DNA from: Burkholderia savannae
GTDB taxonomy: Bacteria; Pseudomonadota; Gammaproteobacteria; Burkholderiales; Burkholderiaceae
Direction of reading: 5' to 3'
DNA: 64,000 nucleotides
Assembly (NCBI RefSeq): GCF_001524445.2
Contig: NZ_CP013417.1
Location: 186,001 to 250,000, forward strand
The position numbers were made by a program, and so were the translations under genes. How positions within the stretch are numbered: the first letter of the stretch is position 1; each line of letters opens with the position of its first letter. The notes below the pieces were generated by a model. It searched no databases. It was not told the origin of the DNA and saw only the letters and a program-made list of their open reading frames with translations. Shown here in pieces: positions 29,655 to 56,255 of the stretch.

Positions 29655-29657
29655 CAG

Positions 29658-30968: not shown

Positions 30969-30974
30969 GGCGCG

Positions 30975-32551: not shown

Positions 32552-32595
32552 GTGCGTTCCTTATGGAGTAGTCGATTGGGGTGTAGCGGATCGCG

Positions 32596-33006: not shown

Positions 33007-33048
33007 GTGAATCTCCTGGTGGAAGTGAAACGAGCGGCCACGCGACCG

Positions 33049-34158: not shown

Positions 34159-34224
34159 GCCGCCATGGTGGCGGCCAGTAGCGGGCCTGACGAGCTGGCA
34201 GAGGTCAGTTGGGCCTGCCGTCAT

Positions 34225-38056: not shown

Positions 38057-38067
38057 GTTCAGTTTCC

Positions 38068-39855: not shown

Positions 39856-39856
39856 G

Positions 39857-40054: not shown

Positions 40055-40063
40055 GTCATCACC

Positions 40064-40561: not shown

Positions 40562-40566
40562 GCGCG

Positions 40567-41075: not shown

Positions 41076-41299
41076 GCATACCTCCGGTTGATAACCTGCT
41101 CACGACGCTCCTGGCATTCAATGCAGAATCGGCAGCCCGGTACCGCGCGTCGACGTTCCTCGGGAATTGGTTCGCCGCATGCATCGTTCTGGCAGAACGC
41201 TTCCGAACTGGCAGTGCTGCGAGTGGGTCGCGTTGCCGCCGCGATCGCGAGCGCGCGGTACTGTTCTTCGATGTCGCTCGCGTGGTCAAAGTCATCCAT
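41066..41299 (-). CDS. TraR/DksA-type zinc-finger protein
   Basis: A 77-residue protein. A C4 finger, FCQNDACGEPIPEERR..PGCRFCIECQERRE, is the DksA/TraR zinc motif. Small phage and plasmid TraR-like proteins bind the RNA polymerase secondary channel. The ATG follows the Rz stop directly. Confidence 0.85.
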   Translation of the reverse strand: MDDFDHASDIEEQYRALAIAAATRPTRSTASSEAFCQNDACGEPIPEERRRAVPGCRFCIECQERREQVINRRYACK

Positions 41300-41920
41300 C
41301 TATTGCTTGTCCTCTTGCTCCGGAAGCGCGGCCTTCACCGCCTTCAATTTCGATTCGGTGTTTCGGGCGCGGGTCGCGTAGTCGACGACCCAGTCGAGGA
41401 CGTCGGCTTGTGATACCCCGGAGTCAGCGGCGGCATCGGCGTCGGGTCCGACAACAGCAGAGGCGGTATCGGTGCTTGTCGGCACTGCGGAATCACCAGC
41501 GTCGGCGATGCCTGCGGCGTCGTTCCACACGCGGACAAAGCCACGGCTGAACACACAGCCAACGACAGGCGACGCAGTTTGCAGGGCAGTGGCCGGCGTG
41601 CTACGGCGAGGTTGCGCGACATGATCGATTCGCTCCTTCAGCGCCGTCGCGGTCTGTGCGACGGCGGTTTGAACAGTGAGATAGCCGGACTCCACGGCTG
41701 ACGCACGTGTCACGTCGGCCGCGTACTTGCCGAATGCGTCGCTCGCGGCCGACGTGGATGCATGCTCGACGGACGCACGGTAGTCGGCCAACGCCTTGTC
41801 ACCATGTGCAGTCGCAACGCTGTAGCCGTGCTGGTAGGTTTTCGCGAAGGCGGACGCGAGCAGTGCGGCAATGACGATGCCTGCGGCCAGCTTCCCGTAC
41901 TTACAGATTGCTATCGTCAT
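41300..41920 (-). CDS. Inner-membrane spanin (Rz-like)
   Basis: A 206-residue protein with an N-terminal membrane helix (KLAAGIVIAALLASAFA) and a periplasmic helical part (VEHASTSAASDAFGKYAADVTRASAVESGYLTVQTAVAQTATALKERIDH), typical of Rz proteins. The start is ATG 41920, overlapping the holin gene. Together with the lipoprotein encoded inside it, it fuses inner and outer membranes at lysis. Confidence 0.8.
   Translation of the reverse strand: MTIAICKYGKLAAGIVIAALLASAFAKTYQHGYSVATAHGDKALADYRASVEHASTSAASDAFGKYAADVTRASAVESGYLTVQTAVAQTATALKERIDHVAQPRRSTPATALQTASPVVGCVFSRGFVRVWNDAAGIADAGDSAVPTSTDTASAVVGPDADAAADSGVSQADVLDWVVDYATRARNTESKLKAVKAALPEQEDKQ
41344..41622 (-). CDS. Outer-membrane spanin lipoprotein (Rz1-like), nested in Rz
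   Basis: A 92-residue frame lying wholly inside the Rz gene in another frame. It has a basic N-terminus, a hydrophobic segment and the lipobox LSAC (SLAVCSAVALSACGTTP), followed by a Pro-rich tail (QAPIPPLLLSDPTPMPPLTPG), the classic Rz1 profile. The embedded arrangement is well known for spanin pairs. Confidence 0.85.
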   Translation of the reverse strand: MSRNLAVARRPLPCKLRRLSLAVCSAVALSACGTTPQASPTLVIPQCRQAPIPPLLLSDPTPMPPLTPGYHKPTSSTGSSTTRPAPETPNRN

Positions 41921-42146
41921 TTGCCCTTTCCTTGGAGGGACGGCCGCGCCATGCGGCGAGCGCCTGGATGACTGCGGAATAGCCGCCAACGCAACCGAGA
42001 TAGATCAACCAAGTATCGAACGTGAGCTGATTACGGATGCCCTGATAGATGAACATGCCAGTCGCGACGGCCGACGCGATGTTCGGCCAGAGCTTCGCGT
42101 GCGAAAGCTTGCCGTCGTGGCCAGTGATGAGATCGGTGAGACTCAT
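41901..42146 (-). CDS. Holin-like membrane protein (DUF2644 type)
   Basis: An 81-residue protein with two hydrophobic segments (about residues 20-38 and 45-65) and a short charged tail. HDGKLSHAKLWPNIASAVATGMFIYQGI is characteristic of DUF2644-like proteins of Mu phages. Its place between endolysin and spanins supports a holin role. Confidence 0.78.
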   Translation of the reverse strand: MSLTDLITGHDGKLSHAKLWPNIASAVATGMFIYQGIRNQLTFDTWLIYLGCVGGYSAVIQALAAWRGRPSKERANDDSNL

Positions 42147-42150
42147 GGAG

Positions 42151-42645
42151 TCAGCTTGCCGTCAGGAACAGCGTGCGCTCGGCGCGACGACGGCGCGTCA
42201 GTCCGGCCATCGGCTTTCCACCTGCCTTGTCCCACAGCAGGAACTGTTCGGCCGCGCCTGCATAATCCTTCGCGCGCAGCTTCCGGAGAAGCGTCGACGA
42301 GCCACCGGAACGCAGATACACCAGGCCGTCCTTGACGCCCGGCTTGCCAGGACCGATGTTGAATACAAACGACACCAGCGCATCGAACTGACTTTGCGTC
42401 AGTTCGAGATCGAAGTCATTGATGATGTCCTCTCCGCGTGTACGGATGTCTTGTGCGAAGAGCATGTCGGACACTGCCTGCGTGATCTTCAACCCCTTGT
42501 AGACGTCCGGTCCGGTGTGGCCGCGCCCGATCGTCCAGGGTGCGCCACCCGTCGCAGGATCGGGGTACGCTTCGAGACGATCGCTCTCGAAATCCTCGAT
42601 CAGATTGCAGCCGGCGGGGGACAGTCGTTGTTGCTTCATTGCCAT
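42151..42645 (-). CDS. Phage lysozyme (GH24 endolysin)
   Basis: A 164-residue muramidase. The catalytic region is LIEDFESDRLEAYPDPATGGAPWTIGRGHTG, with the catalytic Glu in DFES and the Thr in GHTG. QFDALVSFVFNIG is the family core. The N-terminus is not hydrophobic, so this is not a SAR endolysin and should need the holin. GGAG fits ATG 42639 best; ATG 42645 is also possible. Confidence 0.93.
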   Translation of the reverse strand: MAMKQQRLSPAGCNLIEDFESDRLEAYPDPATGGAPWTIGRGHTGPDVYKGLKITQAVSDMLFAQDIRTRGEDIINDFDLELTQSQFDALVSFVFNIGPGKPGVKDGLVYLRSGGSSTLLRKLRAKDYAGAAEQFLLWDKAGGKPMAGLTRRRRAERTLFLTAS

Positions 42646-42663
42646 CTCCGATTGAATGGCACG

Positions 42664-42710
42664 ACTGTAGGCTGCGTGTAGCGGACACCTTAGTGGATCA
42701 GTGTCAGTGC
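42664..42710 (-). promoter_or_regulatory. Candidate Mor-dependent late promoter
   Basis: Between the early-operon terminator and the lysozyme gene the minus strand shows TACAGT (42669-42664) as a -10, no good -35, and an imperfect dyad GACAC-12 bp-GTGTC (42684-42705). Activator-dependent promoters with a dyad near -35 are the rule for Mor/C control in Mu. Inferred. Confidence 0.45.
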
Positions 42711-42712
42711 AA

Positions 42713-42739
42713 ACAAAAAGCCCCGCACGCGGCGGGGCT
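42713..42739 (-). terminator. Terminator of the early/middle operon
   Basis: Perfect 8-bp stem AGCCCCGC/GCGGGGCT with a 5-base loop, followed on the minus strand by CTTTTTGTTT. It separates mor from the lysis genes. Confidence 0.9.
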
Positions 42740-42766
42740 TCGTTTAATCATGGCGGGATTCTAACG

Positions 42767-43201
42767 CTAGAACAACTCCGCCTGGGGAACGGTGCGTTCA
42801 GATGCGTCGGCGCGCTTGAGGATGCGCCAAACATGTCGGTCGGCCATCTGATAGCGAAGTGCGAGCTGCGCGACAGCGTGGTTTGCAGCATGGTCGCGGG
42901 TCAGCATGTCGAACTCTGCCCGAATGCTCCGATACATCAGTTCACGCATGGCTTTCACGCAACGCGGAATGTACAACACGTCACCTCCGAAATGCGCCGT
43001 AAGCTGATCGGCCGCTTCCGGGCCTACGATCTCGGCAAGCGCCTCGTAACGGATTTCGCCGAGACGCGAGCGGCGCAGCGCGACCGGGAACGTCGTGCCG
43101 CCGAGCTGCTCGACCAGGCGTACCGTCGTCGGCAGACCGATCAGCTTGACGATCGTCTTCACGACGTCGGGCAACAGGTGTTCGACACCATCGAACTTCA
43201 T
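42767..43201 (-). CDS. Mor-type middle operon transcription activator
   Basis: A 144-residue protein. The C-terminal helix-turn-helix (NHAVAQLALRYQMADRHVWRILKRA) and the central GGDVLYIPRCVKAMRELMYRSIRAEFD match the Mor/C family. It should switch on the lytic operons beyond the terminator. It overlaps the gemA-like gene by four bases. Confidence 0.9.
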   Translation of the reverse strand: MKFDGVEHLLPDVVKTIVKLIGLPTTVRLVEQLGGTTFPVALRRSRLGEIRYEALAEIVGPEAADQLTAHFGGDVLYIPRCVKAMRELMYRSIRAEFDMLTRDHAANHAVAQLALRYQMADRHVWRILKRADASERTVPQAELF

Positions 43202-43596
43202 GCCGACCTCCGCTTCGCATCGTATTGCAGCGCGGCGATGAGCTTGCCGAGCATCACGTCGTCACAGAACTCGATCGCGTCGACCTTGCAGATTCGCTTC
43301 ACCATGCCGCCGACGTAATCCCACGGACGGCCAGCGTCAGCTAGCAGCGCTTCAATCTTGCGAATCTGAGCGGCACGCGGCTGCGCAACGTGCGGTCGAC
43401 GGCCGGCATCGCGCTTCGGTTTGAAGCCGCAGCGCTCGAAGTGCTTCAGCAGCTTGTGCGCCCCCTCCGGAGTCAGGTCTTTCGACGAGCCGACGCCGGC
43501 GATGCTGCGAAGCACCGTGCGGTATTCGTCGTCGGTCATCGCGAGCTGTTGTTTGGCGATGTGGATTTTGGCTATCGTTGTTTTCGCGATCAGCAT
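43198..43596 (-). CDS. GemA-like regulatory protein (Mu gp16, DUF1018)
   Basis: A 132-residue protein. IAKIHIAKQQLAMTDDEYRTVLRSIAGVGSSKDLTPEGAHKLLKHFERCGFKPK is the DUF1018/GemA signature. In Mu, GemA affects host gyrase and cell functions. The start ATG 43596 shares one base with the stop of a 28-codon gene upstream. Confidence 0.9.
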   Translation of the reverse strand: MLIAKTTIAKIHIAKQQLAMTDDEYRTVLRSIAGVGSSKDLTPEGAHKLLKHFERCGFKPKRDAGRRPHVAQPRAAQIRKIEALLADAGRPWDYVGGMVKRICKVDAIEFCDDVMLGKLIAALQYDAKRRSA

Positions 43597-43682
43597 CACG
43601 ACCTCCACCAGCGCCGCAGTTCCTTGCGGCAAAGACAGACCAGGAAGACGATCCCGGCCAGGATGACGGCGATGTCAGACAT
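43596..43682 (-). CDS. 28-residue membrane miniprotein
   Basis: MSDIAVILAGIVFLVCLCRK...WWRS: one hydrophobic helix with a basic tail. Its start overlaps the upstream gene by 8 bp and its stop shares a base with the GemA start (TGATG), so translation is probably coupled. Not recognised; coupling and composition are the only support. Confidence 0.5.
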   Translation of the reverse strand: MSDIAVILAGIVFLVCLCRKELRRWWRS

Positions 43683-44133
43683 GGGCCGCATCCGATTCAG
43701 TCACATCGACCGACGTGTTAACCACCACCCCAACCGAGACGAGCGAAACCGACTGGTTGACACGAGCGAAGTGGCGCAGCATCGCTCCCGGTGCGCTCCA
43801 TGTAGGCATGAAGATCGTCGCGGTCTTGTCCAGGTCCGGGAAGTACTTCCGGGCCTTCCGCTTGCCGAATTGCTTCTCGATGTTCGCGCGCTGCGATGGT
43901 GTGTACGCGCAGATCTTCGTAGGCCGATAGAACCGATGTTCGGGCGCATCTGCCTTCAGATAGCTTCCCCGGAACCAGCCGTTCACGTAGACCATCAAGT
44001 CATAGCGACGCGGCTTCGTTCGCTGCACCTGAATCGTGACCGTGTCACCATCGCAGCGAAGCACGACGCACCCATACGGAAACGACAGTTCCGTGTCGAT
44101 TTTCTCGATGTCTTCTCGCGAGAGTTTTGACAT
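43675..44133 (-). CDS. Hypothetical early phage protein
   Basis: A 152-residue protein with a beta-rich start (FPYGCVVLRCDGDTVTIQVQRTKPRRYDLMVYVNGWFRG) and a basic middle (KQFGKRKARKYFP). Not recognised. It is part of the tightly packed early operon between DUF3164 and GemA. Confidence 0.68.
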   Translation of the reverse strand: MSKLSREDIEKIDTELSFPYGCVVLRCDGDTVTIQVQRTKPRRYDLMVYVNGWFRGSYLKADAPEHRFYRPTKICAYTPSQRANIEKQFGKRKARKYFPDLDKTATIFMPTWSAPGAMLRHFARVNQSVSLVSVGVVVNTSVDVTESDAAHV

Positions 44134-44142
44134 GGCTCCTCC

Positions 44143-44700
44143 CTATACCGGTTTCGCCGCCTGTGCGGGAGCGCGAGATTCGAGCGCTTCGATCGCGGCG
44201 AGGATCGGATTGTTAGCGCTCGACCATTCGCCAACATCCACCTCGAGGAGCTTTCCGACCGATTCGGCTAGGCGCGTGCCGTCCTCTTCCATCTGGTCGC
44301 GCTCGTCGATCGTCCGCGAAAGAACGCGCTCGAGCGCCTCTTCCGCCCCCGACTCGTTGGCGGACGCGGCGCGGGCATTCATCGCCGCAGCGATTTCCGT
44401 GGCAATAGAATCAGTGATCGCAACAGCAAGCTTGGCGTCTCCGCTCCAAATCTCGCGCGCGTGCGCAACAACTTTGATGTGACGTGGTGACCGCTCGTTC
44501 GCCGGCGCTGCCGGTGCGGGACGTGACAGCATCGGGTTGAGGCGCAGAACTGCATTCCAGAACTCGCGAGCCGCGTCGTCGACGGTCAGGTGGTCGGCAA
44601 TAGTCACACGGCCGTCGTCGGCGATCGTGATGATCGGTTGGACCGATTGATCTAGCGACGTGAAGGCGATGCTAACGGTGCAATCGTCTTTGTAGGACAT
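44143..44700 (-). CDS. Hypothetical early phage protein
   Basis: A 185-residue protein. VTIADHLTVDDAAREFWNAVLRLNP is a compact helical motif, and the second half is an acidic Ala/Glu-rich helix. Not recognised. Directly downstream of the DUF3164 gene. Confidence 0.68.
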   Translation of the reverse strand: MSYKDDCTVSIAFTSLDQSVQPIITIADDGRVTIADHLTVDDAAREFWNAVLRLNPMLSRPAPAAPANERSPRHIKVVAHAREIWSGDAKLAVAITDSIATEIAAAMNARAASANESGAEEALERVLSRTIDERDQMEEDGTRLAESVGKLLEVDVGEWSSANNPILAAIEALESRAPAQAAKPV

Positions 44701-44713
44701 GGCTATGTACCTC

Positions 44714-45331
44714 TCAGATTGCCGCGAGATCGAGACTGATCGCGCGATATTCTTCCGTCTCGTCGACGCGCTCGTACAGCCGAATATATGGCTTGCTGCC
44801 CGTCACTCGAATGCTGTCGACGATCGCACGCATCGCCTTGGTCCACTTCGGATCGTCGATCGCGAGGCGGCGCAACGCGAGAATGCGCCCGGTGTTCACG
44901 TTGCCTTCCTTGTCGACCTGGAACGCTTCGTTGATCAGCACCTTGACCTTGTCGTTACTGCCTTCGGTCCATTCGCGCAGGCACTCGTCGATCAGTTCCT
45001 TCGCCGCCTGCAGGCGCTCGTCGAACTGAAGGTGTTCGGCGATCTGGCGCACGATCTTGTAGCGACCGTCGAACGTGATGAGCGAAATGTTGCCCTTCGC
45101 GCCACCGACCTTGACGCCGTATTGCTCATGGCTAGTTGCGACGAACGCAGCGATGTCGCCGAATGCACGCGTCTTGAACTCAGCCATCTCCGACTGAAGA
45201 CGCCTGGCTTCGGCCACCAACGACGTGATCGTTTGATCACGCAACTGGTCGATCGGCTCGACCAGCGATTCCGGAATGAGGCGGCCACGTGCGTCTTTTA
45301 CGTAGCCGACCGGGATTTGATTCTTCGTCAT
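44714..45331 (-). CDS. DUF3164-family protein
   Basis: A 205-residue protein. VGYVKDARGRLIPESLV at the start and GVKVGGAKGNISLITFDGRYKI...LRRLAIDDPKWTKAMRAI are typical of DUF3164, a family common in the early region of Mu-like phages. Role unknown, possibly a replication accessory factor. Confidence 0.85.
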   Translation of the reverse strand: MTKNQIPVGYVKDARGRLIPESLVEPIDQLRDQTITSLVAEARRLQSEMAEFKTRAFGDIAAFVATSHEQYGVKVGGAKGNISLITFDGRYKIVRQIAEHLQFDERLQAAKELIDECLREWTEGSNDKVKVLINEAFQVDKEGNVNTGRILALRRLAIDDPKWTKAMRAIVDSIRVTGSKPYIRLYERVDETEEYRAISLDLAAI

Positions 45332-45364
45332 AGCGTGTTCCTGGTAGGAAAATGGATTGACCGG

Positions 45365-45670
45365 TCAGTGCATGCGCCAGAGGTTCTTGCTCTCGATCGC
45401 CTCTTCGATCTTCTCTCGCACGCGCGGCCGCTCCGACAGATACTCATCTAGACATTCGGCGAGGCCAGTGATATCTCCCTGAACGTGCAGCGTCAGGAGG
45501 TGATTCACTGCACCAACCATTTGCGAACCAATCTCGTCGTACTGTGCGATCTTGGTCAGAAGTTGCTGCACCGTTGCGTTCGCGCGGCGCAACTCGCATC
45601 GCAGTTCGGCCACACTGCTTAATGCCTCGGGGTTGGTCAGGGTTTGGCCTTGGGTGATATGGATAGTCAT
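45365..45670 (-). CDS. Hypothetical early phage protein, helical
   Basis: A 101-residue protein, mostly coiled-coil-like helix (VAELRCELRRANATVQQLLTKIAQ). Not recognised. It overlaps the preceding winged-helix gene by four bases. Confidence 0.65.
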   Translation of the reverse strand: MTIHITQGQTLTNPEALSSVAELRCELRRANATVQQLLTKIAQYDEIGSQMVGAVNHLLTLHVQGDITGLAECLDEYLSERPRVREKIEEAIESKNLWRMH

Positions 45671-46104
45671 GCTTGTGCTCCCGCGATCGCTTCGATGTTG
45701 ATGCAGTCGACGAACTTGAGCAGACGAGACGTTTCCTCGCGCGTCAGCTCGATCGTCTTCCGTCCCTTGGTTACCGTGAGGCGGCCGGCCGTCGAGAAGC
45801 CGCAGACGAAATCACCAGGCGCGGCATCGGTCGGAGTAAATGCCGGTGCTTTTCGCGCGGCTTTTGTCACGGTCTGTTTCGTGCCGTCGAACTCGCGCAC
45901 AAGATCGTCGCTCGGGTAGTACAGATTGATCGGGGACGAGCCATCCATGACCTTCTTGTCGCGGATCACGCGCCCCTGGCGGATGTACGGATCGATGCGC
46001 GGCTGGATGTCCTTCGCATCCACGTCGAGCTGCTCGGCGAGCTGCGCGCCGGACGAACCCGGGTGGTCGATGATGGCCTGGAGAATCTGCTGTACGGATG
46101 CCAT
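45667..46104 (-). CDS. Winged-helix DNA-binding early protein
   Basis: A 145-residue protein. The N-terminal MASVQQILQAIIDHPGSSGAQLAEQLDVDAKDIQPRIDPYIRQGRVIRDK is a MarR/IclR-like winged helix. The C-terminus (GRKTIELTREETSRLLKFV) is a second small helical unit. AAAGGA with six-base spacing selects ATG 46104 over the TTG upstream. Probably a regulator of the early or middle genes. Confidence 0.72.
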   Translation of the reverse strand: MASVQQILQAIIDHPGSSGAQLAEQLDVDAKDIQPRIDPYIRQGRVIRDKKVMDGSSPINLYYPSDDLVREFDGTKQTVTKAARKAPAFTPTDAAPGDFVCGFSTAGRLTVTKGRKTIELTREETSRLLKFVDCINIEAIAGAQA

Positions 46105-46115
46105 GTTCATTCCTT

Positions 46116-46433
46116 TCAAGAGAGGGTTTGATATGCCTTGATGAGCTTGCGAGCGGCAGAAACTCCCTGCCAGAACTCTTCCGTTGACTTCTCTTTGATG
46201 AGACGTTTCGCCATCGAAATCGCAGCGGCTTGCGTCTTGCCACTTGCAATACGAAAGCCTGTGCCAACGTGCGTCACGACAAATGCCGGCTCGCCCGCCG
46301 TTGTTGCAACCGGATTGGCATGAGCAGCAAACAGCTCCGTCGGATATTCGGGAAAATCGATGCGGTCGCCATCGACCGCAATACGACGGGCACGACGCCC
46401 TTCGTCAGAGCATGTGAAAACGTGTAGCTTCAT
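46116..46433 (-). CDS. Hypothetical early phage protein
   Basis: A 105-residue protein. MKLHVFTCSDEGRRARRIAVDGDRIDFPEYPTELFAAHANPV then VVTHVGTGFRIASGKTQAAAISMAKRLI. Small alpha/beta protein, not recognised. Confidence 0.65.
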   Translation of the reverse strand: MKLHVFTCSDEGRRARRIAVDGDRIDFPEYPTELFAAHANPVATTAGEPAFVVTHVGTGFRIASGKTQAAAISMAKRLIKEKSTEEFWQGVSAARKLIKAYQTLS

Positions 46434-46487
46434 AAAAGGACTCCTAATATAGTTTGATGATCTTCGGGAAAGGCGCTGCTTCTGTTT

Positions 46488-46796
46488 TTAGTGTCCTCGC
46501 TCCGTCCATAGCACACGGATCTCGCCGACCTTGAACTGGCCGGTGCGGTAACGTGAGACGCCCGAGCCACCCGTGCGGTAGTACGTGGCTTCACCTTTCG
46601 CGATCATGTCGGCGCAGACCTCGCAGTTCTGCACCTGGATCGTCGGCTTCGAGCCGTTCGAGAACTCGATGCCGATGACCGTGAAGCCCTGCGTGGTGAG
46701 CGTCTCGATCGTCGCTGCAAGACGCAGTGCCGTGAGCTGCATGAGCTGATTGATCGGTGGCACGGGCGAATTGAGGGCGTTACAGTTCGTCGTCAC
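46488..46796 (-). CDS. Hypothetical early phage protein with CxxC pair
   Basis: A 102-residue protein with a helical N-terminal half, then VQNCEVCADMIAKGEATYYRTGGSGVSRYRTGQF. The single Cys-x-x-Cys suggests a weak metal site or redox pair. Not recognised. It starts in the stop codon of the HTH gene. Confidence 0.65.
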   Translation of the reverse strand: MTTNCNALNSPVPPINQLMQLTALRLAATIETLTTQGFTVIGIEFSNGSKPTIQVQNCEVCADMIAKGEATYYRTGGSGVSRYRTGQFKVGEIRVLWTERGH

Positions 46797-47125
46797 TTGG
46801 ACTCTCCTTTAACGGGGCGCAGCGGGCAGTTGCGGCACGTGCGCCAGTGGCTCAGTTCCATCGGGTTATTGATCGGGGCGCGGCGATTGGCGAAGGACAC
46901 GCATACCGTCAGCGAGATCGGCTGCCCGGTATGCGTGCACTGCACCTGTCCGAACGTCTTCAGGACGCGGGCGGCGACGCGATCGGTGTTGCCGGGGTAT
47001 TTGCCCGACAGGACAAGCGAAACGGTCGTTCGTGAGACGTCGAGCAGCTTGGCCACGTTGGTTTGCGACGTCGCGGCGACAGCCTCGCGAAGCATGGCGA
47101 GCCAGTCCGGATCAGCATGCGTCAT
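46793..47125 (-). CDS. Helix-turn-helix transcriptional regulator
   Basis: A 110-residue protein. LREAVAATSQTNVAKLLDVSRTTVSLVLSGKYPG is a LacI/XRE-like helix-turn-helix. The C-terminus holds cysteines (CRNCPLRP) that could bind zinc. ATG 47125 overlaps the previous gene by 14 bp and is preferred to an upstream in-frame start. Confidence 0.75.
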   Translation of the reverse strand: MTHADPDWLAMLREAVAATSQTNVAKLLDVSRTTVSLVLSGKYPGNTDRVAARVLKTFGQVQCTHTGQPISLTVCVSFANRRAPINNPMELSHWRTCRNCPLRPVKGESK

Positions 47126-47738
47126 GGTCCGGCTCCTCTTGCCATACGACCTTCCCAAGGTTCGGGTCGTAGACCGATTTCGTGCGCTGGATCATCGGCG
47201 GGCGCGGGCCGGTGTACTTCGATGCGATCAGGCGATACCGAGCCTGTTTCGCGCCCTTGCCACGGATGTATGCGTGACCCGAATCAACGAGTGTCAGGTA
47301 GCCGGCATGCGACAGGCATTTGACGTAGGACTGCGCCGTCGAGTCGGTGATCGCGACGTCGGGCGTCGACGCACGCATAGCCAGCTCGCGCGGCGTGAAG
47401 TCGCCCATGATGCGCATCGTGCGCCACATATGTTCGTTGCCACGCGACTGCATGACGGGCTGGCCCTTGCGATCGAGACGCGGGGCTTCGACACCGACGT
47501 CGCGGACGAGGCGATAGTGCTTCCGATCACTGATCGCCTTGCGCTCGCCGATCTGCTCGACGTACTCGCCGCGTTCCAGCGCTTGCAAATACGTCTGAAC
47601 GGTCGCCTTGTCGATGTCGGCAGCACGGACGATGCTGTGCGGGGTGAAGTCGTCTCGCTGGCTGCGAATCGCTTCCCATACACGCTGTCGCGGACCCTTG
47701 CCGCCGGTCAGTTCGAGGTGGGCGGGTTTTCTAGCCAT
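47112..47738 (-). CDS. Protein with two winged-helix-like units
   Basis: A 208-residue protein. Two similar halves each look like a winged helix: RQRVWEAIRSQRDDFTPHSIVRAADIDKATVQTYLQALERGEYVE and WRTMRIMGDFTPRELAMRASTPDVAITDSTAQSYVKCLSHAGYL. It follows the transposase pair and is probably a DNA-binding early protein. Confidence 0.72.
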   Translation of the reverse strand: MARKPAHLELTGGKGPRQRVWEAIRSQRDDFTPHSIVRAADIDKATVQTYLQALERGEYVEQIGERKAISDRKHYRLVRDVGVEAPRLDRKGQPVMQSRGNEHMWRTMRIMGDFTPRELAMRASTPDVAITDSTAQSYVKCLSHAGYLTLVDSGHAYIRGKGAKQARYRLIASKYTGPRPPMIQRTKSVYDPNLGKVVWQEEPDHDAC

Positions 47739-47961
47739 GTTTGCCTCCCTTCACAACAGCCAGAGCAGCGAGCGCGATGCAAGTCAGCGCAGCGAACAGC
47801 ACGACGACCGTCCAGGTAGCCAGATCGATCCAGGTCGACGGGATCAGCAATCCGGCCAGGAGTGCAGCGAGTGCCACTGCGGACACGCGAGCGACGAACT
47901 GAATCGCTCGACCGGCATCGGCGGCGGCATTCGCTTCGGGTGTGATGTGGTGGTCGATCAT
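47731..47961 (-). CDS. Small two-helix membrane protein
   Basis: A 76-residue protein. Two hydrophobic helices (FVARVSAVALAALLAGLLIP and ATWTVVVLFAALTCIALAALAVV) and short polar ends. Start ATG 47961 lies 8 bases after the ATPase gene. Unknown role; possibly superinfection or early membrane function. Confidence 0.7.
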   Translation of the reverse strand: MIDHHITPEANAAADAGRAIQFVARVSAVALAALLAGLLIPSTWIDLATWTVVVLFAALTCIALAALAVVKGGKHG

Positions 47962-47968
47962 GTCGACC

Positions 47969-48715
47969 TCACACGCGGCGCTTCGGCGCTTCGCCGGTGT
48001 ACAGCTCGCGCTTGCCCCACTGCGCGAGGTCGATCGCATCCTTGCCGGCCATCAACGCTTCCTCCTGGATGCGTTCGAGATTCACGCAGACGCGACGCAC
48101 GGACCCGTGCGCCAGTTCGACGAGCCGCGTGAGCAGATCGTCCGCAACCGTGATGTGTCGGCAATACAGCGTCGCGAGCTGGCGAGCGTCGTCGATCGTG
48201 ACGGGCTGTGCCGGCACCCAGGCCAGCACGCGGCCGTGCATACGCTCCCACTTCTTGAGTTTGATCGGCAGCGCTTCCTCGCCGATCATCAAGATCGGTG
48301 CCTGGCTCGACTCGTACAGATCGCGGACCAGCTCGACCGCGTTGCGGTCGACCAGGTGATCCATCTCGTCGATGATCAGCGGCCGGCCGGACGCGGCCAG
48401 TTCTTCGGCGACCTGATCGGCCATCTCGGGGATCGTGCCGCCGGGTTTGATACCCATCTCGAACAGGATCGCTTTCAGGAAATGCTTCTTCGTCCAGACC
48501 GACTTCGCCTGCACGTAGCGCGCGCGGCGAGCGTTCGCCACGTAGTTCGCGGCCATGCTCTTGCCGTAGCCGGACGGGCCGTAAAAGCACACGAGACCGG
48601 GCAGGTTCGCGCTGCGCGAGACAGCTCGCTCGATCGCGATGTCGCACAGGTTCAGGTTGGTGATTTGAGCGACGCCGCCTACAATCGGTTTGAGCGTGGA
48701 TTCGAGTTGTGTCAT
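47969..48715 (-). CDS. AAA ATPase, transposition protein B (ExeA/MuB-like)
   Basis: A 248-residue ATPase. Walker A GPSGYGKS at 46-53, Walker B PLIIDEMD at 112-119. It corresponds to the ExeA-like B protein of BcepMu-type phages and acts with the transposase in target choice and replication. CAGGAG precedes the ATG. Confidence 0.92.
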   Translation of the reverse strand: MTQLESTLKPIVGGVAQITNLNLCDIAIERAVSRSANLPGLVCFYGPSGYGKSMAANYVANARRARYVQAKSVWTKKHFLKAILFEMGIKPGGTIPEMADQVAEELAASGRPLIIDEMDHLVDRNAVELVRDLYESSQAPILMIGEEALPIKLKKWERMHGRVLAWVPAQPVTIDDARQLATLYCRHITVADDLLTRLVELAHGSVRRVCVNLERIQEEALMAGKDAIDLAQWGKRELYTGEAPKRRV

Positions 48716-48732
48716 GCTTGCTCCTGTTGGTG

Positions 48733-50916
48733 TTACTGATGGCTGGCGAGCTGCAACTCTTCAGCCTGTTCCGCGCGGCGCTTTTGCGCCGCAAATTCTT
48801 TGCTCAACGCGTATCTGCCGTACCACTGCAATTCGTCCTGGTCCGGAATGCCTCCTGTTTCGATGTGTTCGTTCAGGGTCTGCCACCGGGCAAATCGCAG
48901 TTCGGGTGTTTCCGGAAGCTGAAACACGGTGGCGGTTTCAGTGACGGCTTCCGGTTCCGATTGCGGTTCAAGGACCATGGGCGCGGCCGGTTCGATGTCG
49001 ATCACTGGCTCGACGTCCACAAAGCGCCGACTCAGCGCGTCGCGCGTGATGTCGCCGAACCCTGGGATCGTGATGACCTCGGGCGTTTCGAGGGTGAGTG
49101 CCGGTTGGCCACGACGTTCCGCCTCGACCTCGTCGAGCTTCACTTGCAGGCGATTCGCTCGCGCATCGGCACGCTTCTCGCGAGCCTGTTCGACAGCGGA
49201 CTGCGGCATGTAGGCCCGTTCGTTCGCGCCGGCCTCGGCCTGGCAGATGTAGCGACCGTCGAGCGCGTAAATCCAGACGAACCGCGCATCGTTGATGTCG
49301 TAAGCGACTTGAACTTCTTCGTCGTGGAATTCGAGCAGCTCCTGCGGATTCGAATACCGGTGATTCAGGAACCGAACCTCGCCGCGCGCGACGGTGCGCT
49401 TGATACGCGGCCGGAATACCATGCGCGCATCGTGTTCGTCGAGCGTGTCGGCCTGCCAACCTTGCGCGCCATGTGCCGCCCACGCTTCATTGGGTGACAT
49501 GTGCCGACGCTTGCCGGTGTTTGGATCACGGATGACGGGTAGCGTGCTATGGGGACGGTCGTTGTACGCGTCGACCTGTTCCTGGCAAAACTGGATGAAC
49601 GCGTCCCATCCCATCAGCGAGATCGCGCCGCCGTGCTTGAGAGCGTCGCGCGTGATCTTGAACATCACGTGCTTGGCCTGGCGGTCCATGTCCACGCCCA
49701 TGTACGACGGCAGCGTCTTCGCGGCGGCGACCCACAGCGTCTGGTGAAGGCGCTCGACGACACCTCGTGCCTGCGAGTTGTACGGAATCGAGTGCGTGAC
49801 GACGAAGCCCAGGCGACCCTGGACGCCGACGCCTTCGTCTTTCAGCAATGCGTTCTTGTAGCCGGACCCGTTGTCGACGTAGAACATGCTCGGCACGCCG
49901 CACTTGAGTACTGCGGTACTCAGCGCGTCGAGCACGGCGAACGACGACTCGGCCAGGTCGAGCGAGATGCCGACCGCGCGTCGCGTGGCGACGTCGATAA
50001 TCGACGTGATCTCCGGCCGGAACGGCCGACCGTGCAGCGGGTGCTGTACCTCCGCGTCGAACGTATGACCGTCGGCCGACCAGATGTCGTTCGGCAGCAG
50101 CTTGTCGAACGTGCGGCGGATAAACGGCAGCATGGTCTTCAGTTCGCGCGATCCCATACGCCCGGTCTGCAACGTCACGCTGCCGAGCTTGTCGAGGAAG
50201 CGTCGGACCTGATGGACGCTCGGCACGTCGTAGGTGACCCGCTGCACCGCGCATGCCGTCGTGAAGTCACGATAGGCTTGCTCGACCGACGGCTTCTGCG
50301 GCTGCTGATAGTGTTCGAGGAAGAGCTTCGCCCACGCCGGGATCACGAAGCTCGACTTCGGAATCTTCGGCGCGAGAGAGCCTTGTTTCGCGAGGCCGAG
50401 ATAGCGCTTCAGCGTGCGGATGCTCGGGAATTCGTCACCCTTGCGACCGCGCGCATCTTTGGCCGCGCGCAACATGGCTGTCAGGTGATCGTCGAGCGTG
50501 CCGAGGCGCGCCTGCGTGAGCAGCGTGTGCATCGCCGCCTCGCGCGAGACACGGCATTGCGTCATGATGCGATCGAGCATCGACAAGATGCCCTTGCGCG
50601 CATCGGCGCGCAGGCGCTGCACATCGGTCTCGACGAGCTGCAGTTGCTGCTCGCGGCGGATGATCGCCTGCGGCTTCGCTTCGGGCATCGTCCCGACGAG
50701 CGCGGTTGACGCTCGGCGGCGGATTTCTGCTTGTGCGTCGACGGGCAGGCTTTCGAGCGCATATTCGAGGCCGCCACCGCGACCCTCGCGTTTCCGAAAC
50801 GACCAAGCCGCCGATTTCGCGCGCAGTTTGACACCTTGCATCGTGGTCGGAAGGCTCGGCAAGTTCATGCCCGCCAGTTCTGCGGCGGCGTAGTGCGATT
50901 TGACGACGGCCTGCAT
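48733..50916 (-). CDS. DDE transposase A (MuA-like)
   Basis: A 727-residue transposase. An N-terminal DNA-binding part precedes the rve catalytic core with Asp in IWSADGHTF (about 282), Asp in FYVDNGSGY (about 348) and Glu in GVVERLHQ (about 388). A beta-barrel and C-terminal B-binding region follow. All catalytic residues are present, so it should be active. ATG 50916 shares a base with the upstream stop; GTG 50919 is an alternative start. Confidence 0.94.
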   Translation of the reverse strand: MQAVVKSHYAAAELAGMNLPSLPTTMQGVKLRAKSAAWSFRKREGRGGGLEYALESLPVDAQAEIRRRASTALVGTMPEAKPQAIIRREQQLQLVETDVQRLRADARKGILSMLDRIMTQCRVSREAAMHTLLTQARLGTLDDHLTAMLRAAKDARGRKGDEFPSIRTLKRYLGLAKQGSLAPKIPKSSFVIPAWAKLFLEHYQQPQKPSVEQAYRDFTTACAVQRVTYDVPSVHQVRRFLDKLGSVTLQTGRMGSRELKTMLPFIRRTFDKLLPNDIWSADGHTFDAEVQHPLHGRPFRPEITSIIDVATRRAVGISLDLAESSFAVLDALSTAVLKCGVPSMFYVDNGSGYKNALLKDEGVGVQGRLGFVVTHSIPYNSQARGVVERLHQTLWVAAAKTLPSYMGVDMDRQAKHVMFKITRDALKHGGAISLMGWDAFIQFCQEQVDAYNDRPHSTLPVIRDPNTGKRRHMSPNEAWAAHGAQGWQADTLDEHDARMVFRPRIKRTVARGEVRFLNHRYSNPQELLEFHDEEVQVAYDINDARFVWIYALDGRYICQAEAGANERAYMPQSAVEQAREKRADARANRLQVKLDEVEAERRGQPALTLETPEVITIPGFGDITRDALSRRFVDVEPVIDIEPAAPMVLEPQSEPEAVTETATVFQLPETPELRFARWQTLNEHIETGGIPDQDELQWYGRYALSKEFAAQKRRAEQAEELQLASHQ

Positions 50917-51398
50917 CACTCGGCCTCCGCATCATCGAACCGCAGCTCAGGCGCGCGATCCTTCGTGACGTTCTCGCGGTGGTAGCCGGCCTGGGTCATC
51001 GCGCAGGTCAGTGCCGCGATTGCTTCGGCCTGTTCGTGGCCGGATGCGTAGTAGCGGCAAAGCACAGCCGCCGCGTCGGCAAACGCGCTTTGCAAGGATG
51101 CGAGATCGGAGACGCCGGGGCGACGGCCGGTCGGAATCTCGATGACGACGCGGCGGCCGTCCGCAACGCACAGGTATTCGCTGACGAAGCGTGCGCCGCA
51201 GAATTCTTCGAATTGACGCACGCGGTTCAGCGGCATCGACGTCTCGGCGAGCCAGCGATACAGCGTTTTTACTTCGACGCCCATCAGATCGGCCAGCACC
51301 TTCGCCGGCCGGCGGCGCTCGTCAGCATGTTGAACGCACAACTCGAAAGCCTCACTCAGGCTTGTCGCGTGCAGGGATTTCCAGGTCCGTTTTCTCAT
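50916..51398 (-). CDS. Early regulatory protein with helix-turn-helix
   Basis: A 160-residue protein. LSEAFELCVQHADERRRPAKVLADLMGVEVKTLYRWLAETSMP is a helix-turn-helix of the CII-like kind found next to transposase genes in BcepMu-type phages. The C-terminal half is helical. ATG 51398 is chosen; the frame upstream is arginine/proline noise. Confidence 0.75.
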   Translation of the reverse strand: MRKRTWKSLHATSLSEAFELCVQHADERRRPAKVLADLMGVEVKTLYRWLAETSMPLNRVRQFEEFCGARFVSEYLCVADGRRVVIEIPTGRRPGVSDLASLQSAFADAAAVLCRYYASGHEQAEAIAALTCAMTQAGYHRENVTKDRAPELRFDDAEAE

Positions 51399-51459
51399 CG
51401 TCGTGTCGTCCAGGTCGGGAATCGCGCCGATAGCGCGTCGGGATCGGGGTGCGTACGAT

Positions 51460-51780
51460 TCAATCCATTGCAACGGCGGCCGAACGCACAGTGCGGGGCG
51501 CACAAACAGGGGAGGACGGTGACAAAACGGGCGTAAAATTTCGTTTCTCGTATCGGCTCGGCCAGATTGCCTCTGGCGGAACGCCGATCGTTTCAGCAAT
51601 TAGCTTCTCGGCGTTCGGATACGCCGTGCGAAGCGCGTTGCGCAAGGTTCCAGGCGCATATCCGTGATGGATTGAAAGAGCGCGAAGGGACCAGCCGGCC
51701 TTTTTCACGGCGGCGATGATGTCCGCCTGATGCCAATCGGATCGTTGGGCGGTCTTTTTTGGGACATTTTCATGCCTCAT
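51460..51780 (-). CDS. Ner-like DNA-binding regulator
   Basis: A 106-residue protein. RSDWHQADIIAAVKKAGWSLRALSIHHGYAPGTLRNALRTAYPNAEKLIAETIGVPPEAIWPSRY is the Ner/Nlp family domain. Ner turns down early transcription in Mu. GGAG six bases ahead selects ATG 51780. It diverges from the repressor gene. Confidence 0.85.
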   Translation of the reverse strand: MRHENVPKKTAQRSDWHQADIIAAVKKAGWSLRALSIHHGYAPGTLRNALRTAYPNAEKLIAETIGVPPEAIWPSRYEKRNFTPVLSPSSPVCAPRTVRSAAVAMD

Positions 51781-51927
51781 GGCGTACTCCATGCGGTTCG
51801 TCATGAAGCAATTAAACCCGAACGGAACGCGAAAATCAACCCTTTCGGGTTGTTTATTGTTCCGATCGGACTTGTCATCACCCCGATTGGGTGATTTTCC
51901 CTTGTAAATCAACCATTTGTACGGAAG
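51781..51927. promoter_or_regulatory. Divergent early promoter/operator region
   Basis: A 147-bp AT-richer region between ner and the repressor. It holds several palindromes: CAACCCTTTCGGGTTG (51836-51851), TTCCGATCGGA (51860-51870) and TCACCCCGATTGGGTGA (51877-51893). GTTCCGATCGG recurs at 51965 inside the repressor gene. These are good candidates for repressor and Ner binding sites. Confidence 0.75.
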
Positions 51928-52707
51928 ATGAAAGCAACAATGGAGCGAGATGCCCCTCTTTCAAGTTCCGATCGGGATGTTGAAACCTTCAACAAGCAGG
52001 TCGGCGAGAGGCTGCGTCGTGTCCGAACGGACGTGTTGAAGACGTCGATCGCCGAGATGGCAGCTACCTTCGGCATTGGCACCAGCACAATTCAACGGTA
52101 CGAGAACGGGGAGCGGACTCCCGACGCGTTCTTTCTTCGGCAAGTCGCCGAGCGAGCCGGGGTTCCGATCAACTCGCTGTTTGGCCAGGAGCCTGAGGTA
52201 GCTCCCACCGCCTTCACCGAGGGGCGATCTGACGACGCGCAGCCCCAAAGCGCATGTTTCGATACGATGGGAAACCCGGTCGACATCGCCGAGTTCGTGT
52301 TTATCCCGCGTTACAACGTGAAAGCCGCCGCTGGGCACGGGGCGTCGTTGGGCGACGGCAAACCTCCGCTGGCGATGGCTTTCCGGCGATATTGGGTCGA
52401 CAATTACCTACGGATCAACCCGAAAGATTTGGCTGTGATCGCAGTAAAGGGCGACTCCATGGAAGGGGTGCTGAGTGATCGGGACGTAATCTTGGTCAAC
52501 CAAGCGGATACCCGACCAGGCGCAGGTTTGTACGTGCTGAGAATGGACGGGGAGCTGTTTGTGAAACGTCTTCAGCGGCTTCCGGAGGGGAGGCTCGAAG
52601 TAAGTAGCGCCAACGAGGCGTACCGGCCGTTTACGGTTGATATGGCGTCGCCGCCAAGCGACTTCGAGATCATCGGCCGCGTTGTCTGGGTGGGCCGGCA
52701 AATATAG
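51928..52707 (+). CDS. Phage repressor, HTH plus S24 (LexA/CI-like) domain
   Basis: A 259-residue protein. An XRE-type helix-turn-helix at about 38-62 (TSIAEMAATFGIGTSTIQRYENGERTP) is followed by an S24 peptidase domain with catalytic Ser177 (VKGDSMEG) and Lys213 (ELFVKRLQR). Ala135-Gly136 in AAAGHG is a likely self-cleavage site. This suggests SOS-responsive induction, unlike Mu's own repressor. It is the only plus-strand gene of known function in the prophage and is transcribed toward the left end. Confidence 0.93.
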   Translation: MKATMERDAPLSSSDRDVETFNKQVGERLRRVRTDVLKTSIAEMAATFGIGTSTIQRYENGERTPDAFFLRQVAERAGVPINSLFGQEPEVAPTAFTEGRSDDAQPQSACFDTMGNPVDIAEFVFIPRYNVKAAAGHGASLGDGKPPLAMAFRRYWVDNYLRINPKDLAVIAVKGDSMEGVLSDRDVILVNQADTRPGAGLYVLRMDGELFVKRLQRLPEGRLEVSSANEAYRPFTVDMASPPSDFEIIGRVVWVGRQI

Positions 52708-52904
52708 GTGGTGTGGATAACTTCCACTCCCCGCCTATTCTGGTGTCAAAATCTTTGCGAAATCCGCGCATTTCGCAGTCATTTCTCGCAGAATCCTTCG
52801 CGCACCGCCGCGACCGCCGAAATTGCCCGACGCCTTGTGCGGCGGGCGTTCGAGCGCTTTTCTAGTCCGGATTCTGGCGGTGTCAAATCGAGCACCTCCC
52901 CACA
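52708..52904. other. Prophage left end (attL) with transposase-site-like repeats
   Basis: GGTGTCAAATCG (52879-52890) sits exactly as far from the terminus at 52904 as the matching repeat at the right end. A second copy, GGTGTCAAAATC, is at 52742-52753. GCCGAAATTG (52816-52825) repeats the core of the divergent right-end site in the other orientation. A weak hairpin near 52824-52862 with TTTT may end repressor transcription. No gene is seen. Confidence 0.82.
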
Positions 52905-52927: not shown

Positions 52928-53965
52928 GTGACCGACCAACAATTGATAAGCGTCATCGATATGGCAGAGACCTACAACATCGGGGAAATCGCGACGCGCG
53001 TATCCGAAGATATCTTCGAGTACTTCAGGTGGAATATTCACCCCGCCACCAACCACAATTTTGCCTGCCTGAACGACGACCATAAGACCGCGGGTGGATC
53101 AAAGAAGCAGACGCACCCGACCGATGTCGTCTTCTATTACGACGATCCGTATCTGGGCCGAAAGGTCTATCTGAACACCGATCTCAAAAGCTACGGACAG
53201 TCATCTATCAACCAGAGCACATTGCGTAATGCACTGCGTTCTTTAGCGATTTCCGTCCAGTGTGCGTGCGCTTCGGACGAGTGGCGAACGAGGCATGTGG
53301 TGGATGTCTCGGAACCCTATGAGGTTCGCGGGTTGCTTTTTCTGCATAACCACGATCATGACTTCAAGCATGACCTAGCGGAAACCATGCGCAAGATCGA
53401 TGTTTCCGCCCTGCCCATCGCGGAAAACACATACCTGCATGTGCTTGGGCCACTGGATATCAATCGCCTGTACTCAGTTGCAAACGACCTGAGTCGTCTG
53501 TTGCAGCGCAAGGAAATATCCGACGACTACACGTTCTATTATCCAGACCTCGTTCTATGGCGTCGGCACGGCGAGGTTTGGGGGCAAGCCGCGACAGTTG
53601 AAACCCTGAACGCACCGTACTGCGTAATTAAACACAATGGTACGGATAAGGGAAAGCCTGGCTACGTGATCTATTACAACCGGCCGGGTGATTCGGCCAT
53701 GGAGTTCGAGTATTTTCTCGACAGTCTGTCTCGACTGCAATTGCTGGACAAAGACGCACAGGTGCGCGTTCGCGTGAGTCATAAGCAGCCGAGCGATCAG
53801 ATTCAAAGTAATTTTTTGGTAGCCAAGCACCGATACAGCAAGGCATGGGGTTTCGAGGCGACAAGGGCGGCAACACTGGACGCCATTAAGCTCGAACACG
53901 TTGTCGCCGTCACGGACAATTATTCTCCTGCAAAGCTCGGTTGGCGCGATGGAGAAAATGGATGA
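52928..53965 (+). CDS. Operon protein 1, PD-(D/E)xK nuclease-like, function unknown
   Basis: A 345-residue soluble protein, not recognised as a named family. Residues 60-95 show a pattern like a PD-(D/E)xK nuclease core: Pro64-Thr-Asp66, hydrophobic strand, then Asp85-Leu-Lys87 in YLNTDLKSY, followed by a helix and preceded by Glu27/Glu31 in an N-terminal helix. The rest is mixed alpha/beta with no signal or membrane segment. The start is GTG 52928, or ATG 52961 eleven codons on; neither has a strong ribosome-binding site. The gene is far more AT-rich than the core genome and is coupled to the next gene (ATGA). Confidence 0.8.
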   Translation: MTDQQLISVIDMAETYNIGEIATRVSEDIFEYFRWNIHPATNHNFACLNDDHKTAGGSKKQTHPTDVVFYYDDPYLGRKVYLNTDLKSYGQSSINQSTLRNALRSLAISVQCACASDEWRTRHVVDVSEPYEVRGLLFLHNHDHDFKHDLAETMRKIDVSALPIAENTYLHVLGPLDINRLYSVANDLSRLLQRKEISDDYTFYYPDLVLWRRHGEVWGQAATVETLNAPYCVIKHNGTDKGKPGYVIYYNRPGDSAMEFEYFLDSLSRLQLLDKDAQVRVRVSHKQPSDQIQSNFLVAKHRYSKAWGFEATRAATLDAIKLEHVVAVTDNYSPAKLGWRDGENG

Positions 53966-55080
53966 AAAAGCCGCCTCATGGACCCTCGATTTATTACGCA
54001 ACGGACAAGAATGTGTTCGATGCGTTGAATCAACATCGGGTTGATCAAGCGACGATACGTCAATTGTTTGCCGACAGAAATGTTTTGGTTTCGAAGTATA
54101 CCGATAAGTCGGAACTCGCGAAATACTTCAGCAGGCTGGTGCATGATTATCAGGATCATCAGCGAATAGCAGCTCGCCTCGGCGTTGCTAATCGCCGAGA
54201 AAAGGTGACTGCGGTAGAGATTACAACGCCCATTGATGTGAATCAGATCGAAACGGCTATTTCTGCAATCAAGGTCGAACTAGAGAAGGAAGGCGACGTT
54301 GTTTTGATCACCAGAGACGGAGATGACATCGCATTGGTTGTCCAGTATTCCGAGGTGGATTACGCTAAAACTGAATTCAAGCAGGTTCAGCATAAGGACG
54401 GTGTAATTCAGTTCAAGAAAGAGGATGGTGCGTATGTTGTTAGAAATTCGCAAAATGAATACATAAACAAAGTTCGAGAGGCTGTTTTTTCTTCGGTCGA
54501 AAAGAGAAATTCCATAAAGCTGGATCGCCGCGTCGTTTCATTGTATGACGTGGTGTTGCCTAGCTTGAGAAGTGAATTTTTCTATAATTTGATTCACGGC
54601 ATCGAAGGAATGGGTAAGTACGATGTAACCGAGCTGTACGTATACCGCAATACTCCAGAAGAGTCAGACGAAGACGATGAGCAGGAGCTTTCCGACGATG
54701 ACATCGGTAACAATGAGGTGCAGGACAGCCGAATCGAGCGGATTGCATTGCGCGGAAAAGGGGTGGAGCAGTCGCAGGAACTGAAGGACATCATTAGCAA
54801 GTCCGCAGATTTCTACACGATTCGAACCGTGTGGAAGGTTAGGGAAGCAATGGGCGAGGGACACGTTTTCGAACTTGATGCACATTTTGCAAATGCGCGA
54901 GACTGCACTGGATTCTCATATCTTGTTCGCGGCGTTTACCCGTGCGAAGACGGGATGGTCAGCAAAAAACGCCGCAGTCCGAGACCAGACGAGGTTGAGC
55001 GGTTATCGTCACTCATCGAGAAAGCGTCCAAGAAGTGCGCTGAAGATATTTGGACTAAATCGACCCCTCCGAAGACTTGA
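53962..55080 (+). CDS. Operon protein 2, function unknown
   Basis: A 372-residue soluble protein, not recognised. The N-terminal part (about 1-75) is helical with a YFSRLVHDYQDHQRIAARLGVANRREKV helix. A beta-rich middle includes DVVLITRDGDDIALVVQYSEVD. An acidic loop (EESDEDDEQELSDDDI) lies at about residues 233-248. The start is ATG 53962, overlapping the stop of gene 1. The codon use and low GC match gene 1 and gene 3, so the three probably travelled together. Confidence 0.8.
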   Translation: MKKPPHGPSIYYATDKNVFDALNQHRVDQATIRQLFADRNVLVSKYTDKSELAKYFSRLVHDYQDHQRIAARLGVANRREKVTAVEITTPIDVNQIETAISAIKVELEKEGDVVLITRDGDDIALVVQYSEVDYAKTEFKQVQHKDGVIQFKKEDGAYVVRNSQNEYINKVREAVFSSVEKRNSIKLDRRVVSLYDVVLPSLRSEFFYNLIHGIEGMGKYDVTELYVYRNTPEESDEDDEQELSDDDIGNNEVQDSRIERIALRGKGVEQSQELKDIISKSADFYTIRTVWKVREAMGEGHVFELDAHFANARDCTGFSYLVRGVYPCEDGMVSKKRRSPRPDEVERLSSLIEKASKKCAEDIWTKSTPPKT

Positions 55081-55084
55081 CATC

Positions 55085-55774
55085 ATGACCTTGCGATTCA
55101 AATGGTATAGGCTCGCGCTTCCTTTCGGAGTATCGAACTTGGTTCGTGAGCTTCTCAATTTTCCGCTCACATCCGAATCGGATTGCGGGTTTCGCCCGAG
55201 AAAATCAGACGAGACCGGCGATTGCCTTCGTTTCGCATGGCGCTCGACAGTATCTGCGATTGCGTTCGATGAAGATGGCAATCCCCGTGCCGAGTCCGTA
55301 TCTACGATTAATTTTGTAGACATCAAATTTTTTTCGAGAGGCGAAGCAGTGTTTCTGCGGGTGGACAACCCGGGGAAATCGGTGAAGACGCTTATGAACG
55401 AATTGGGGCGAATCGCGGGATATGGATTTTCAATTCAACCCATGGTTTTCGGTGATTCTACGACGCCGCCATTCTTTGATAAGTTTGATCAAATTCGCTT
55501 GGTGGGTTTGAAGCTAATCAACGTAGTATTTGACCGGCACGTGGTCGGGCGGGTCGAACTCGCCTCCAAGGAGGGAATCGACCTCAAGGCAATTTGGGAA
55601 ACCACGGGCAAGACCTATGTGGTCGACACGGCGACGTACGAAGTGACGGCCCGTATGATCAAAGGTCAATTGTCGTTTAGCAAAGGAGGGTTGGTAAAAG
55701 TGACGGACCGACTTGCTCCGCAATTCCTCGATTTCTTTGAAGGCGCGATAGAGGAAATCGCCGAGTCCCGCTAA
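55085..55774 (+). CDS. Operon protein 3, function unknown
   Basis: A 229-residue soluble protein, not recognised. It begins MTLRFKWYRLALPFGVSNLVRELLNFP and contains IAFDEDGNPRAESVSTINFVDIKFFSRGEAVFLRVDNPGKS, a beta-rich stretch. ATG 55085 lies 4 bases after the stop of gene 2; the open frame further upstream overlaps gene 2 and is not used. Last gene of the operon; it converges on the recombinase remnant. Confidence 0.78.
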   Translation: MTLRFKWYRLALPFGVSNLVRELLNFPLTSESDCGFRPRKSDETGDCLRFAWRSTVSAIAFDEDGNPRAESVSTINFVDIKFFSRGEAVFLRVDNPGKSVKTLMNELGRIAGYGFSIQPMVFGDSTTPPFFDKFDQIRLVGLKLINVVFDRHVVGRVELASKEGIDLKAIWETTGKTYVVDTATYEVTARMIKGQLSFSKGGLVKVTDRLAPQFLDFFEGAIEEIAESR

Positions 55775-55820: not shown

Positions 55821-56255
55821 TCACCTAGTTGGCGTGATCTTAGCGCCGCGCTTTCGCACATAGTGCTCGGTCATCGCTACGCTCCCATGCCCGAGCAGGG
55901 CCTGTGCGCTTCGCAGGTCGGTTGCGCTTTCTTTGTCAGTGCCCGCCTTGGCCCGCAGGTCCCGAAACTGAAACGCTTCTTTCGCGATACCGGCTGCATC
56001 CCGTGCGCGGTCAAATCGAAATCGTAACGCTGAGCGTCCCAGTGGCCGCCCATGTTCGTCGACGATAAGGCGTGTTGACCTAGGGTTGTGTGCGGTTTTT
56101 CTACTAGCAAGTTGTGCAAGTAGCTCGGCACGTTCGCCGACAACTTCAATGCGCAGACGCGCCCCGGTTTTATTCTGTCGGACCCAGACCACGCCGTCGC
56201 GAACGTCTCGCTTATCCATCTTCAATACGTCGGCCGGCCGTTGCCCCTCGTACAC
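55821..56255 (-). pseudogene. Phage-type tyrosine recombinase, C-terminal part
   Basis: A 144-residue open frame that carries the whole catalytic half: Arg in EGQRPADVLK, RDLRAKAG, LLGHGSVAMTEHYVR with His and the Tyr nucleophile. The N-terminal core-binding half is missing. The frame breaks at about 56255, where an IS3-type sequence on the other strand begins. It is probably the integrase of the island at tRNA-Thr, inactivated by an insertion and deletion. Confidence 0.85.

Follow-up and report, generated by a model that had tools for sequence, protein, structure and literature searches.

We analysed a window of 64,000 nucleotides from Burkholderia savannae (GCF_001524445.2, contig NZ_CP013417.1, positions 186,001 to 250,000), in which three plus-strand genes form a new divergent copy of an already known anti-phage system, at a tRNA-Thr island site of the genus. 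The system is almost certainly 3HP (Rst_3HP), and its gene names are used here: Hp1 (52961..53965, 334 amino acids), Hp2 (53962..55080, 372 amino acids) and Hp3 (55085..55774, 229 amino acids). The first-pass annotation of the window had correctly placed three open reading frames (ORFs) here, with a 4-bp overlap of Hp1 and Hp2 (53962-53965) and a 4-bp gap between Hp2 and Hp3 (55081-55084), and was also right about their AT-richness; the trio stretch has 50.0% GC vs. 61.9% for the window, and only 3 of 1224 stretches of the same length are equally low. Hp1 has an alternative start at GTG 52928, yet ATG 52961 is the most likely one, since the 15 aligned Hp1 homologues begin at (M/V)(A/S)ET. The top 19-residue hydropathy values are 0.69, 0.72 and 1.07 for Hp1, Hp2 and Hp3, so that no membrane helix is expected in the trio, as previously noted.

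PADLOC identifies the first protein as Hp1 (PDLC03004, 1.6e-71) and the second as Hp2 (PDLC03005, 1.6e-41); its Hp3 model gave no match to the third at E 1. That model likewise misses the Hp3 proteins of both other scanned copies of the window's branch (L019 and L005). A family profile built from protein 3 and 14 relatives does, however, match the Hp3 proteins of two further loci, L060 on a viral contig (4.4e-14) and L051 (1.1e-9), and these same proteins are Hp3 according to PADLOC (3.5e-157 and 9.9e-10); the three proteins of L060 score 791, 820 and 519 bits with the PADLOC Hp1, Hp2 and Hp3 models. Protein 3 is therefore a divergent Hp3 that the PADLOC model overlooks. Matches to phrog_7059 (Hp1, 4.2e-102) and phrog_5850 (Hp3, 3.7e-18) were also found. 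All three genes that define 3HP are thus present and in order, with Hp2 directly downstream of Hp1, and the homologous trio of a Vibrio phage record (PQ189388.1) is labelled Rst_3HP Hp1, Hp2 and Hp3. The operon had been described as unrecognised and its second and third proteins as matching nothing known; neither description holds, while the proposal of a three-protein defence module is supported. No Pfam family scored above its cut-off for any of the three proteins, in a release that lacks PF26115, and PDB searches with single sequences and profiles gave no relative of Hp1, Hp2 or Hp3, only weak and apparently unrelated rows.

Rousset et al. (2022; PMC9122126) describe a three-gene system of the P2 hotspot, lacking clear domains, that protects against P1, the only phage of a panel of eight that their text names for it. 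We infer that this system is 3HP, because an entry of a 2024 survey that places 3HP under 'Unknown' cites Rousset et al., and because of the labels in the phage record. The window trio shares with 3HP of P2 phages the three homologous genes and their order, the nuclease motif and a location on mobile elements; it differs in sequence (41, 27 and 16% identity for Hp1, Hp2 and Hp3) and in residing at a tRNA-Thr island rather than in the P2 hotspot.

A search for the trio in other genomes, which the first-pass annotation had proposed as a check, found it conserved. Loci were picked by Hp1 alone, yielding 90 (42 on genome contigs and 48 on viral contigs, some nearly identical). Hp2 and Hp3 follow in order on the same strand in 83 of the 84 loci with at least 1900 bp after Hp1; the one that does not fit (L044) is a partial match of 298 bp, and the remaining six loci end too soon. 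Averaged over all pairs of 46 non-redundant loci, the window being one of them, identity is 0.42 for Hp1, 0.33 for Hp2 and 0.22 for Hp3. The three genes form one unit, with Hp3 changing fastest. Profiles found all three in each of five records examined, from Vibrio, E. coli, Klebsiella and two filamentous Pseudomonas phages. In an E. coli prophage (NZ_CM166341.1) and a Klebsiella Peduoviridae phage the trio is flanked by the portal gene and the replication endonuclease gene, a slot that is the described hotspot (PMC9122126). In the filamentous Pseudomonas phages (OR621021.1 and OR621024.1; L142 and L143) the whole trio is close to a genome end, and in one of the two its third gene is annotated as an RdgC-like exonuclease. 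The L060 trio was matched in 18 of 5426 complete E. coli genomes, over at least 80% of its length in 17. Nearer to the window, a search of 64 further genomes of the genus gave no Hp3 match, and among 369 genomes of the class only the window's own genome had one, although named Burkholderia and Paraburkholderia are represented among the copies in protein databases. Viral contigs scanned with Hp1 or Hp3 as single proteins yielded no confirmed hit, and the same was true of phages and plasmids searched with Hp3 and of the A1 scan, but the deeper Hp1 alignment did recover the 48 viral-contig loci.

Ten Hp1 residues (C36, H41, H52, P53, D55, D74, K76, C101, E214 and E248) are identical in 46 of 46 non-redundant homologues. 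They include the D...(D/E)xK residues expected of a PD-(D/E)xK active site (D55, D74 and K76). The PD-(D/E)xK pattern proposed earlier, numbered from the GTG start, thus stands for Asp66 and Asp85-x-Lys87, which are these same residues; its Glu27 and Glu31 (E16 and E20 from the ATG) are not conserved and are mostly replaced by other residues. PF26115 is the precomputed assignment of the 120 Hp1 homologues listed of 279, protein P0016 is labelled a GAPS4 PD-(D/E)XK domain protein in one source, and one record names the E. coli Hp1 a PD-(D/E)XK nuclease domain protein. Hp1 very probably has nuclease activity. The invariant C36, H41, H52 and C101, which the earlier description did not include, are also kept in GapS4a, and are likely a metal site.

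GAPS4 is a two-gene system. Among the papers listed in our literature search, which had most subscription papers outside its coverage, none was on GAPS4 as an anti-phage system. The NCBIfam GapS4a model matches Hp1 at 39.7 bits (3.4e-10), short of its cut-off of 270. Above the cut-off, GapS4a was found in one of the 369 genomes of the class (347 bits; locus L160) and in none of 299 genomes. The gene overlapping it was taken by position to be GapS4b. In profile comparisons Hp1 matched GapS4a (score 47.7, probability 86.7) and Hp2 matched GapS4b (42.7, 72.0); the highest-scoring of 150 decoy proteins reached 25.8 and 30.3 and that of 150 shuffles 25.4 and 23.4, and cross comparisons of Hp1 and Hp2 with the non-matching partner gave probabilities of at most 0.4. 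The Hp1 model also finds GapS4a in HMMER (7.4e-9). The Hp2 model does not find GapS4b there, so the GapS4b link, which comes from the profile-profile comparison, is the weaker half. Hp1 and, more weakly, Hp2 thus resemble the two proteins of one GapS4a locus. GapS4a shares C36, H41, H52, D55 and C101 with Hp1, but has no D-x-K aligned with D74-x-K76; Hp3 gave no match on the 5.5-kb contig of the one GAPS4 locus examined, whereas the third gene accompanies Hp1 in 83 of 84 3HP loci. With a third gene and a GapS4a score below cut-off, the window trio is not GAPS4 itself.

Predicted structures of the two remaining proteins match E. coli RdgC (PDB 2owl), over 209 of 229 residues for Hp3 and over residues 79-365 for Hp2, following a helical N-terminal part. 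Both predictions have the overall RdgC fold, and chains of the Iml3, CENP-L and CENP-N/Chl4 types are among their structural matches. Hp3 is accordingly modelled with a fold that is very likely that of RdgC, and Hp2 probably has it too. The earlier guess of a sensor and an inhibitor or adaptor as partners of the nuclease can be refined in its sensor part, in that both partners look like RdgC-fold proteins. This link comes from the predicted folds: comparison by hhalign of Hp3 and Hp2 with 11 RdgC proteins was insignificant (probabilities 0.7 and 2.4), the RdgC family model PF04381 matches neither at E 1, and a profile comparison of Hp2 with Hp3 gave no match (probability 0.1). Conserved basic residues in Hp3 point to nucleic acid.

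RdgC is the product of a single gene and forms a homodimer, unlike the two-gene Hp2/Hp3 pair, and we know of no nuclease partner for it. As reported, RdgC homodimers are rings that bind DNA, Iml3-Chl4 is a yeast heterodimer of the same fold that contacts centromeric DNA, RexA is an exclusion protein that binds DNA and is homologous to RdgC, and both RdgC and RexA have roles in recombination or the lysis-lysogeny decision (PMC11077077). Iml3-Chl4 and CENP-L-CENP-N combine two different RdgC-fold subunits, as Hp2 and Hp3 are predicted to do, but are eukaryotic kinetochore proteins without a nuclease. In the lambda RexA/RexB pair the partner, RexB, is a membrane protein; the trio has no membrane stretch.

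The trio looks to be carried by a decayed tRNA-Thr island. The tRNA-Thr(TGT) gene (15551..15626, plus strand), the only tRNA found in the window, is an island integration site in the genus, and its region is present in 65 of 65 genomes. The first-pass annotation had recognised this location; the tRNA is today 37 kb from the trio because a Mu-like prophage (15717..52904) intervenes, and once the prophage is subtracted, 141 bp separate the tRNA end from the Hp1 ATG. On the other side lies the C-terminal remnant of a tyrosine recombinase, the island integrase (55821..56255, minus strand; PF00589, 6e-18, profile positions 34-169 of 172). With its integrase so reduced, the island is probably immobile; in its own genome the 25-base tRNA end does not recur within 2 mismatches, and so the island looks decayed. 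Of the other 64 genomes of the genus, at least 14 do have a second tRNA-end copy, at most some 40 kb away on the contig of the tRNA. We examined the sites of 13 relatives (L121-L133), 11 chosen for the repeat, plus the two closest genomes (L123 and L124), which have no tRNA-end repeat within the 6 kb examined. The 11 islands hold 93 ORFs, of which the 64 larger were scanned. Among the matches listed (the first 25 of 219 PADLOC and the first 25 of 29 Pfam families), cargo includes HEC-01A/B, AbiEi/AbiEii, a DNA cytosine methylase, DarT, a Zot-domain protein and TsiV-type immunity proteins. In one relative (G072) an ORF matching the integrase remnant by DNA lies beside tRNA-Thr with cargo between, which is the slot of the trio here. 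As defence cargo the locus is ordinary; its value lies in the mechanistic reading.

The prophage ends in TG at 15717 and CA at 52904 and is flanked by a 5-bp duplication, GGGAT (15712-15716 and 52905-52909); scanning the two end regions showed no other 5-base match of this kind. It carries a MuA-type transposase (48733-50919) and an S24-type repressor (51928-52707). Its left end has two relatives, one at another place in this genome and the other in a different genome of the genus, whose similarity extends no further than 52904 and 52905; the trio is therefore outside the phage, whose boundary had rightly been drawn upstream. The trio was also considered as left-end cargo following the repressor, and this was rejected since the prophage ends at 52904. 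A related left end lies at G000:C1:2466688-2466890 (91% identical). The repressor gene, co-oriented with the trio, stops 253 bp short of the Hp1 ATG, and the prophage itself stops 56 bp short of it; because of this arrangement the insertion may have separated the trio from its own promoter, or coupled it to lysogeny. At the right end of the prophage a long minus-strand ORF (15803-17821) resembles by eye a membrane acyltransferase, a possible surface-conversion gene. Adjoining the recombinase remnant, 56243-56615 has a 97% identical copy elsewhere in the genome and resembles by eye an IS3-type remnant; beyond it, a minus-strand ORF (56809-58371) is GGDEF-type-like by eye, in DNA that matches many sites in the genus.

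Two different predicted RdgC-fold proteins beside a nuclease suggest that a heterodimer forms a DNA ring, which would carry Hp1 or unlock it. By analogy with RdgC and Iml3-Chl4, Hp2 and Hp3 would pair into a two-subunit ring or horseshoe around DNA. The ring would recognise a state of phage DNA, whether free ends or intermediates of recombination or replication, and would place or release Hp1, which would then cut DNA and stop infection, possibly at the cell's cost. We infer the pairing, the DNA binding and the cutting by Hp1, and give this mechanism for 3HP about an even chance.

The trio might instead be a toxin-antitoxin system, in which Hp2 and/or Hp3 hold a toxic nuclease Hp1 until a phage breaks the inhibitor, DNA binding by the partners being incidental. 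A tight overlapping operon on mobile elements fits this, as does the rapid change of Hp3 (0.22 vs. 0.42 for Hp1), which a component in contact with phage proteins should show. Against it, the nuclease gene comes first and is followed by two large partners, predicted to be RdgC-like; only one partner gene accompanies GapS4a at the one locus examined, and the conserved basic residues of Hp3 suggest nucleic acid. We regard it as unlikely. Constitutive exclusion is improbable to a like degree: here Hp2 and Hp3 would load Hp1 on any linear incoming DNA, much as in restriction, sparing the circular chromosome and needing no switch. A ring threading on DNA ends would distinguish linear from circular DNA, and none of the methylase models in the Pfam, PADLOC, phrog and NCBIfam scans matched the trio. 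However, RdgC itself binds circular DNA, according to the title of a reference cited in PMC11077077; host DNA acquires ends through replication and repair; and P1 as the one phage of a panel of eight that the text names for the system (PMC9122126) is a narrower range than exclusion of any linear DNA predicts. Housekeeping of mobile elements through control of recombination or replication, with the P1 block incidental, is very improbable: although RdgC and RexA have such recombination or lysis-lysogeny roles (PMC11077077), and 48 of the 90 loci are on viral contigs, the other 42 are on genome contigs, the trio occupies a variable slot of P2-like phages, other cargo at the tRNA-Thr site includes AbiE, HEC-01 and a DNA methylase (among the matches listed), and P1 protection is reported for the P2-hotspot three-gene system (PMC9122126).

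Returning to the ring that delivers a nuclease, we tentatively suggest, at somewhat less than even chance, that 3HP is an immune machine in which a two-subunit RdgC-like DNA ring, a prokaryotic counterpart of Iml3-Chl4 and CENP-L-N, would sense the state of phage DNA and deliver a GapS4a-type nuclease; GAPS4 would be a pared-down version having a single ring gene, and Rex a related system with the same sensor fold and a membrane effector. The combination of a nuclease with two partners of predicted RdgC fold offers a concrete and testable mechanism for 3HP, filed as 'Unknown' in its entry of the 2024 survey. If true, the ring reading would join 3HP, GAPS4, Rex exclusion, RdgC and the inner-kinetochore fold.
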